NCBI GenBank assembly: GCA_900618795.1
Contig: UYJD01000020.1
Coordinates: forward strand, 308,178 to 372,177
Reading direction: 5' to 3'
Source of the DNA: Cyanodermella asteris
Taxonomy: Eukaryota; Ascomycota; Lecanoromycetes; Ostropales; Stictidaceae
Length of the DNA stretch: 64,000 bases
The notes under the pieces are model-generated. The model was not told the origin of the DNA and ran no database searches. It worked only from the letters and a program-made list of their open reading frames with translations. Position numbers and translations under genes: made by a program. Below are positions 21,000 through 46,895 of the stretch, one piece after another. Position 1 is the first letter of the stretch. Each line of letters opens with the position of its first letter.

Positions 21000-22163
21000 T
21001 CACCCCCGTTTTTCCGTCTCGGCTTGCTCAACATGCTCGCCGCCGGCTTTGGATCTCTCATGATCAACGGCGCTGCGCGCGCTCCGGGCTCCGTTGCCTG
21101 TCACTTGTTCGTCTTTGAGGTCCCGCACTCGGCGCGCAAGATCGGTGATGTGCGCGTCGCCGCTGTCTTCGCTGAGCTCATCCAGGGCTTGTTCCAACAT
21201 GAAAAGGTATTCGGTGTTCTGACCAGACGGGCCGACGCTGTCAAGGATGTGTTTGGCAAGAGCTTGGGGTTCCTGAACACCCATGAATTGGGGGTTATCT
21301 GGCATACCAATGTACACCATGCATCTGAAGGGCTTTATCGACGTTTCGGCCGGGACGAAAGGCGCATATTGGATGCTATACCCGTTGATCTCTCGGATGT
21401 CCAGATACTCCTGGACCTCTTTGACCTTGGATGCCTCTATTCGATAAGCCGTACCCCAGACGCGTTCTTCGGGAATGGTGTACTGGCGTTCGTAAGTCTC
21501 ATGCTATCAAACGCATGGTGCACTGGTACAAACTCGGTCATGTAAGCTGTCCCAGAAGGATCTTTCTATTAGTGTAACAACCCGGCCAGGTGCTTGTGGT
21601 GTTCCACGGTGATCCTCGCTGATATTTGATCAGCCACGGTGGTACAGTCGGCCTGAAGCATGCGTACCTCGCCTGATCGCCGAAAGAATTAGCTGCCAAC
21701 TCCAAAGCACAGTGAAAACGTCCACAACCAAAGAGAAGTGAAACAGCAAACAGAGATACAGCAGGCGCGTTTGCGGGCATGTTCACAAACCCACGTCTGC
21801 ACTCAGATGGGTCTAAAACCCTCCTAGGGACGCGAAAGCGCAGACAGATTTGCGATGCACGTAGCTGTCACACAGAACCAAGGAAACAGAGAGACCATGT
21901 CTTGCAGTACCTGCCAAAACCTACGAACGTAGCCATTCACATAACCCGGAACGCGGCGATCTAGGGGCTGATGGTCAGAGTCATGGCATCTATTGTGGCT
22001 ATGAGAAGGGTCTATGACATACCAAAGTGAGGTGGAGGCTTCCAGATTAGACTCCTGAACATGGGCGTCAATCAACACAGCAGACAGACTGACACCATCC
22101 GGCAAGATTGATCAGCTTGACCCACCCGTATCCAAACAGCCAGAATTCGCCAGCCTCAGCCAT
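21000..22163 (-). CDS. Glutathione-specific gamma-glutamylcyclotransferase, ChaC family
   Basis: Six exons, complement(join(21000..21482,21534..21618,21668..21672,21911..21960,22023..22054,22126..22163)); 230 residues. It cleaves cytosolic glutathione to 5-oxoproline and Cys-Gly. The N-terminus reads MAEAGEFWLFGYGSLIW (FGYGSLIW, residues 10-17, is the substrate-binding signature), then KPPPHFDRRVPGYVNGYVRR FWQASEDHRGTP, GRVVTLIERSFWDSLHD and EYLDIREINGY with the expected catalytic Glu at about 101. VYIGMPDNPQFMG and GPSGQNTEYLFMLEQAL complete the domain, followed by a 40-residue polar tail. The third intron position is odd: the conserved residues Ala-Ser between FWQ and EDHRG can be supplied only by a 5-base exon (GCGAG, 21668-21672) flanked by CAG and GTACGC. 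It is divergent from the penta-EF-hand gene, 529 bp away. Confidence 0.93.
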
Positions 22164-46053: not shown

Positions 46054-46895
46054 ATGGCCCAGAGGTGAGTCGGCGTGCCGGCTTCTGACACACCGTTGTC
46101 GCCTCCGCCGTACAGATGGATATATACTGATTGTGCGGCTTCAGGCGCGAATACCACATTGTCGTCCTCGGCGCTGGAGGGGTAGGCAAGAGTTGTTTGA
46201 CAGGTATGCGATTCCTGCGATATACATATGGCGCAGGCGGACGGACGCGTTCGATGTCAAGGCCCTTGTCCAGATGTTGTCGTCGCAGCTCAAGGCTCTC
46301 AGCTGTCATACTGACCTGCTATCCAGCCCAATTCGTCCAGAACGTCTGGATCGAGTCCTATGACCCCACCATCGAAGACTCGTATCGCAAGCAAATCGAA
46401 GTCGACGGCCGACAGTGCATTCTCGAGATTCTCGATACTGCTGGCACGGAGCAATTCACAGCCATGCGAGAATTATACATGAAATCGGGTCAAGGCTTTT
46501 TGCTAGTCTTCAGCATAACCTCCAAGTCCTCCCTTCACGAGTTATATGAGCTGCGAGAGCAAATCGTGCGCATCAAGGATGACGAAAATGTGCCGCTGGT
46601 GATTGTCGGCAATAAAAGCGATTTGGAAGAAGACAGAGCGGTGAGCAGGGCACAGGCTTTTCAGGTTAGTGAAAGCTGGGGCAATGCTCCATATTACGAG
46701 ACAAGCGCGAGGAGAAGAGCAAACGTAGACGAGGCGTTCGTTGACTTGTGCCGACAAATCATACGGAGAGACGTGCTTGCGGGCAAAGACCGTCCAGTCG
46801 AAAAGGAGAAGACGAAAAGCAAAAGACCAAAGAGACCTTCGCATCGAGGGCGATCCGAACGGAACAGAGACAGAATTGGTTGCACGATTCTTTGA
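46054..46895 (+). CDS. rsr1: Ras-like GTPase RSR1/BUD1 (Rap1/Krev type)
   Basis: Three exons, join(46054..46064,46145..46203,46327..46895); introns of 80 and 123 nt; 212 residues. The 11-nt first exon encodes MAQR and is fixed by phase and by the usual M[11 protein letters not shown] beginning. All five G motifs are present: GAGGVGKS (13-20), effector loop [28 protein letters not shown] and ETSA. The effector region matches Rap/Rsr1 rather than Ras ([16 protein letters not shown]). A Lys/Arg-rich tail of about 40 residues ends in CTIL, a CAAX box whose final Leu predicts geranylgeranylation, so the protein should be at the plasma membrane. Rsr1/Bud1 recruits Cdc24-Cdc42 to sites of polarised growth; in hyphae it helps set tip direction and branching. 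The second intron is twice the usual length here. Confidence 0.95.

Follow-up and report, generated by a model that had tools for sequence, protein, structure and literature searches.

A ChaC-like gene on the minus strand of the window (22163-21000; the window is the whole 64,000-nt stretch of Cyanodermella asteris DNA that was analysed) very probably carries a constitutive 5-nt microexon, GCGAG, as the fourth of its six coding exons. The upstream exon ends with CAG at 21911, the pentamer occupies 21672-21668 between GATCAG and GTACGC, and the downstream exon begins at 21618 with C-GAGGATCACCGTGG. The two flanking introns are 238 nt (intron 3, 21910-21673) and 49 nt (intron 4, 21667-21619) long. 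These positions and lengths are as reported in the initial annotation of this DNA. Bounded by AG and GT and no longer than 15 nt, the internal exon also restores the frame as was claimed, giving RFWQ-ASE-DHRGTP within an open frame of 230 amino acids. When the exon is skipped and the intervening 292 nt are removed up to the acceptor at 21619, translation changes frame and runs into a stop after 26 residues; inclusion of the microexon therefore appears to be constitutive. The microexon interpretation draws its support from residue conservation and branch-site placement. It gains nothing from the exclusion argument originally offered for it, that no GT-AG pair joins the flanking exons in phase, as this is wrong, and frame restoration is weak by itself. 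A GT-AG pair at 21910/21615 (296 nt) is in frame and yields FWQ-DHRG, with three residues lost.

Gene structure and linker conservation

The six exons splice into a single open frame, and a search of the 28.5-Mb genome gave this single ChaC match, leaving no paralogue for comparison. In size, short introns and branch motifs the genome looks fungal. The spliced protein belongs to the ChaC family (PF04752) and scores 196.8 bits where the cut-off is 21, the match running from position 2 to 174 of the 176 in the profile. Its alignments to human CHAC2 (6k95) and yeast Gcg1 (5hwk) have E-values of 1.1e-43 and 2.3e-33, and both the GYGSL motif and the Glu of the REINGY block, presumably the catalytic residue, are present and invariant in the alignment of the three sequences. 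The gene is best explained as an intact ChaC-type gamma-glutamylcyclotransferase (Gcg1/CHAC2-like) with a predicted role in glutathione degradation.

Exon 1 (22163-22126) encodes MAEAGEFWLFGY and ends two bases into a Gly codon, with a 3′ boundary on which the spliced model and the spliced aligner agree. Intron 1 (22125-22055; 71 nt, GTGGGT...CAG) is backed by the spliced model, the aligner and splice-site scoring, as is intron 2 (22022-21961; 62 nt, GTATGT...TAG, branch CTGAC). Between them lies exon 2 (22054-22023; SLIWKPPPHF), and beyond intron 2 lies exon 3 (21960-21911), which holds the end of an Asp codon and then RRVPGYVNGYVRRFWQ; both exons come from the spliced model and the aligner. 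Intron 3 (GTACTG...GATCAG) has a branch motif, CTAAT at 21692-21688, whose A lies 16 nt from the end of the intron. Exon 4, the proposed microexon, would supply an Ala codon and the first two bases of a Ser codon, and was returned by parse enumeration, the spliced model and the aligner alike. In intron 4 (GTACGC...ATATCAG) the branch motif CTGAT lies at 21633-21629. The initial annotation had rightly seen a branch site here, placed it 14 nt before the acceptor where the A is in fact 11 nt from the intron end, and missed CTAAT, the first of the two motifs. Exon 5 (21618-21534), whose start is also given by the aligner, has the last base of the Ser codon followed by EDHRGTPQAPGRVVTLIERSFWDSLHDR in the spliced model. 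Intron 5 (21533-21483; 51 nt, GTTTGT...CAG) was placed by eye, and the aligner with the shorter human template chose 21578 instead of 21533 as its donor. Exon 6 (21482-21000) runs through the stop codon TGA in the spliced model.

Within the gene span 22163-21000 there are just two copies of the hexamer GCGAGG: at 21672-21667 (minus strand), as the microexon and the first donor base, and at 21619-21614 (minus strand), across the intron 4 acceptor, each time after ATCA(G). This pair is a hint that intron 4 may have arisen through a short local duplication. Elsewhere in the window, a Ras-family GTPase match (PF00071, 154.3 bits) lies on the plus strand at 46314-46763 (contig C17, 354491-354940).

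At the linker coded with the microexon, human CHAC2 reads RFWQ-GST-DHRG and yeast Gcg1 reads RFWQ-SST-DHRG. A three-residue linker with a central Ser is found in 80 of 80 bacterial loci, with Gly as its first residue in 74 and Ala in six; these are the best 80 of 579 from a search with the three-protein alignment, and the sample is biased in that the ranking follows similarity to a query that itself contains ASE and that FWQ[AGS]S[TE]DH was part of one of the two patterns searched with. Among the loci, 51 have the other pattern, GYGSLI[WY]K, and these show the same linker. Pattern parsing covered 74 of the 80 loci (69 G-S-x and five A-S-x), one (L060) was taken from its printed sequence (GST after FYQ), and the five loci without a literal GYGSL anchor were read separately (four GST, one AST). 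A search for bacterial relatives with the single ChaC protein gave zero confirmed relatives, and a plasmid search gave 114 records with a match. The initial annotation had described the spliced product as the exact conserved ChaC sequence. This holds for the middle Ser, which is invariant in the sequences read, and not for its neighbours, the first residue being G or A (S in yeast) and the third variable.

Splice signals and chance expectation

Splice sites were scored with small position models built from 19 introns of E2-enzyme genes in the same genome (lengths 44-114 nt, median 54 nt). From 20 E2-enzyme loci, two of which (L036 and L037) are one gene, the aligner proposed 28 introns (10 + 18), and 19 were kept by eye from the better conserved alignments, a choice that may favour the usual motifs. 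Those dropped were two from L021, one each from L030, L033, L028 and L031, two from L034 and the L037 duplicate; the L021 pair was dropped because a GC-AG intron fits instead. Searches of 234 kb for homology-free training introns gave none in one case and 221 candidates without a donor consensus in another, and a strict-motif intron search (234 kb) returned 14 matches, compared with 4-12 for six decoys.

The microexon is flanked by donors and acceptors with low scores, and this counts against the microexon reading. Intron 3 scores 1.3 for its donor and 1.4 for its acceptor, and intron 4 scores 3.4 and -1.1; the donors of introns 1, 2 and 5 score 7.5, 4.7 and 5.8 and their acceptors 3.6, 3.4 and 5.0. 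When the training introns are scored by leave-one-out, the intron 3 donor stands above 2 of the 19 and the intron 4 donor above 4 of the 19, with the respective acceptors above 1 and 0 of the 19. Intron 3 is also more than four times the training median in length and outside the training range. In favour of the microexon reading, intron 3 is T-rich (34.5% T vs 19.6% in exons). The rival parses depend on at least one of the same worst sites, or on sites no better backed by a branch motif.

The branch motifs score 6.9 bits for CTAAT in intron 3 and 7.0 bits for CTGAT in intron 4. The YTRAY motif occurs in 17 of the 19 training introns, and in those 17 the nearest one lies 9-16 nt from the intron end. 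The 292-nt interval holds only two YTRAY motifs, each shortly upstream of one proposed acceptor, and only one AG-N5-GT placed at least 40 nt from either end. For the acceptors of rival introns of 46, 114 and 211 nt, the best branch scores are 1.8, 3.2 and 1.0.

Chance expectation was assessed in 20000 shuffles, in which 6 bases at the start and 30 at the end were kept in place and the interior was shuffled with dinucleotides preserved, and in 6078 overlapping 292-nt windows from both strands of 234 kb of the genome, coding sequence included. AG-N5-GT alone arises in 11725 shuffles (59%) and is no more than chance. When [GAS]S must also be coded the count is 382, and the added demands of a branch score of at least 6.9 bits, and then also of a donor score of at least 3.4, leave 41 and 7 (genomic windows: 3166, 133, 18 and 7 for the same four criteria), the last two figures being somewhat flattering, as the branch and donor thresholds were taken from the observed case. 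With [GAS]S and the branch motif required, chance stands at 0.2-0.3% across shuffles and genomic windows.

The spliced aligner picks the GCGAG microexon with both templates at seven of seven intron costs. On shuffled sequence, under six settings, it places an internal exon of at most 10 nt in 225-307 of 400 cases (56-77%) and equals or passes the observed score in 47-93 of 400. In the RAD6-like E2 gene L021 (1264-1381; G000 contig C12), an apparent GC-AG intron, AAG/GCAAGT...CTGCAG/CGCATGCAG, was read by eye. There the aligner, limited to GT-AG introns, made a false 5-nt exon, and the GC-AG intron yields RMQ, which we take to be the residues expected from fungal RAD6 sequence. Because shuffles and L021 alike yield false tiny exons, the choice of the aligner and the repair of the frame are weak evidence alone. 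Tiny exons that restore a frame are so easily found by chance that any case of this sort has to be backed by residues and branch sites, or by reads.

Alternative parses and probable order of splicing

Parse enumeration found 28 two-intron parses besides GCGAG that are also open and in frame. Further in-frame GT-AG joins exist, in which other donors yield in-frame insertions or losses. GCGAG is the only enumerated parse with GT-AG at each boundary and a three-residue linker with Ser. It also has the best Pfam ChaC score of seven variants, the others ranging from 179.6 to 194.2 bits: a GC-AG intron scores 194.2, a 2-nt exon 189.8, a 6-nt exon 188.5, the 296-nt intron 185.8, a 32-nt exon 183.1 and a 64-residue insertion 179.6, the last matching in two pieces.

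It is improbable that a single 296-nt GT-AG intron (21910-21615), with its acceptor at CGAG four bases past CAG, is removed to leave an enzyme without the three residues. The linker found in human, yeast and 80 of 80 bacterial loci (the best 80 of 579) would be dropped at a cost of 11 Pfam bits, CAG would be skipped in favour of a GAG 4 nt downstream, and the arrangement CTAAT/GATCAG/GCGAG/GTACGC would be a coincidence (residues and branch together, 41 of 20000 shuffles). These points are set against an in-frame product that still reaches 185.8 bits, a donor in common with the microexon parse, use of the same CTGAT branch motif and an acceptor score of 1.0 vs -1.1 for intron 4.

A single GC-AG intron (21905-21619, ACT/GCAAGA...CAG) is also in frame and gives FWQ-VLE-DHRG, a linker of the correct length. 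Its score is just 2.6 bits under that of the microexon, so that Pfam hardly separates the two, and one such intron seems present elsewhere in the genome, in L021 as read by eye. It is the invariant Ser that separates them: the GC-AG product has Leu for the Ser kept in 80 of 80 loci (best 80 of 579), human and yeast, and Val for G/A/S. GC donors require a strong exon side, and this one has no AG preceding the GC. The probability of the GC-AG intron is judged to be very small.

About as slight is the chance that the assembly is wrong here, that splicing is non-canonical or that another very small exon is used, such as AC at 21796-21795 (FWQ-TE-DHRG, 189.8 bits). The other in-frame two-intron parses number 28, and the acceptor of the 2-nt exon scores 7.2; its linker is one residue short, and only CTGAG, 6 nt before the acceptor, stands in the place of a branch motif. 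As for an assembly error, a one- or two-base indel alone would presumably leave the linker codons missing.

Least probable of all is a parse in which a 46-nt intron (21910-21865) precedes an exon of 197 nt (21864-21668), so that FWQ and ASEDHRG would be 64 residues apart. The stretch keeps an open frame to its end and finishes in the same phase, and the intron is of the usual short size, with an acceptor (TGACAG, 3.4) that outscores that of intron 3. Against this parse, 658 of 5000 shuffles are open as well, and the stretch is T-rich like an intron (34% T; exons 19.6%; introns 1, 2 and 5 together 27.7%), follows an intron without a YTRAY branch motif (best 1.8 bits) and interrupts a conserved block, with the fall to 179.6 bits in two pieces. 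The coding-potential score of the stretch is negative, as are those of exons 3 and 5, and so this score is not decisive. The segment 21864-21673 is taken here to be intron. Its 64 codons (minus strand), open in the microexon phase, could be a source of misannotation or an alternative isoform. A stwintron, defined in abstracts on the subject as nested introns excised as one unit with zero exonic bases between them, was also considered and rejected, since excision of all 292 nt in a single step puts the downstream exon out of frame.

Under the microexon reading, the 5-nt exon would be too small for both flanking introns to be held by spliceosomes simultaneously, and introns 3 and 4 should therefore be removed sequentially. 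By analogy with plants, intron 4 (49 nt, better donor) would probably be removed first, ahead of intron 3 (238 nt, weak donor GTACTG). Plant introns on either side of a microexon seem to leave one after the other, the upstream one tending to stay longer, and this downstream-first order is reported for the majority of the microexons examined there (PMC8831610). Splicing to the acceptor at 21615 may in addition give a small share of in-frame product without Ala-Ser-Glu.

A further proposal, considered unlikely, is that the microexon acts as a switch on glutathione breakdown. Inclusion would give the active enzyme, skipping a frameshifted product, and use of an AG nine bases downstream an in-frame product minus Ala-Ser-Glu. 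This last form would arise once intron 4 is gone, with Ala-Ser-Glu lost at the conserved block, and retention of intron 3 would be the rate-limiting step. Within CAG-GCGAG-GTACGC, intron 3 could end at the second AG with a donor recreated, which would amount to a zero-length recursive site. No sign of regulation of the microexon was found in Rfam matches at 21600-21930 (zero up to E 1, and zero in the whole window at gathering scores) or in the folding of intron 3, where there is no excess (z 0.16).

Comparison with known microexons

Tiny exons are known but rare, and are easily overlooked by gene-finding software. If confirmed, the ChaC microexon would rank with the smallest exons proposed for nuclear genes of fungi, here in a housekeeping enzyme, and would be a clean test case for gene finders, with predictors probably losing three residues, truncating the gene or calling a pseudogene. 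Human CHAC2 (6k95) and yeast Gcg1 (5hwk), compared as proteins, are of the same family and share the GYGSL and RFWQxSxDHRG blocks. In the literature on ChaC and microexons, no ChaC microexon appears among the matches listed, going by titles and the start of abstracts, and two more fungal papers mention a microexon search setting (PMC3990503, PMC8022950).

The CYP621A P450 genes of Fusarium have a 1-nt exon, documented in 20 orthologues and by RNA reads (PMC12940212). As in ChaC, an ultra-small internal exon of a fungus was inferred from out-of-phase flanking exons at a conserved motif, and the interval exceeds the median intron length (PMC12940212). The two differ in that the Fusarium exon is 1 nt long, in a P450 and RNA-backed, whereas the ChaC exon is 5 nt long and proposed from sequence alone (PMC12940212). 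In plants, microexons of 1-15 nt, among them one of 5 nt in rice, have been established by RNA-seq and RT-PCR and form conserved clusters (PMC8831610). The ChaC microexon resembles them in size, in the frequent misannotation of such exons and in the consecutive removal of flanking introns, which is here proposed; it differs in being fungal and in being proposed from its DNA sequence (PMC8831610).

Among filamentous fungi, Xlr2 of Trichoderma virens has a 20-nt microexon that is regulated by glucose and absent from the gene model (PMC11121469). Its length, like that of the ChaC exon, is not divisible by three; unlike it, the ChaC microexon gave no indication of regulation (PMC11121469). The P450 genes of Phanerochaete chrysosporium contain microexons of 2-10 codons, with a shortest exon of 6 bp (PMC1184071). 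These again combine very short exons with small introns in a fungus, in a different species and gene family and with larger exons than the one proposed here (PMC1184071). With exons of 1 nt (Fusarium) and 5 nt (rice) already published, the ChaC microexon would be a further case of a known kind.
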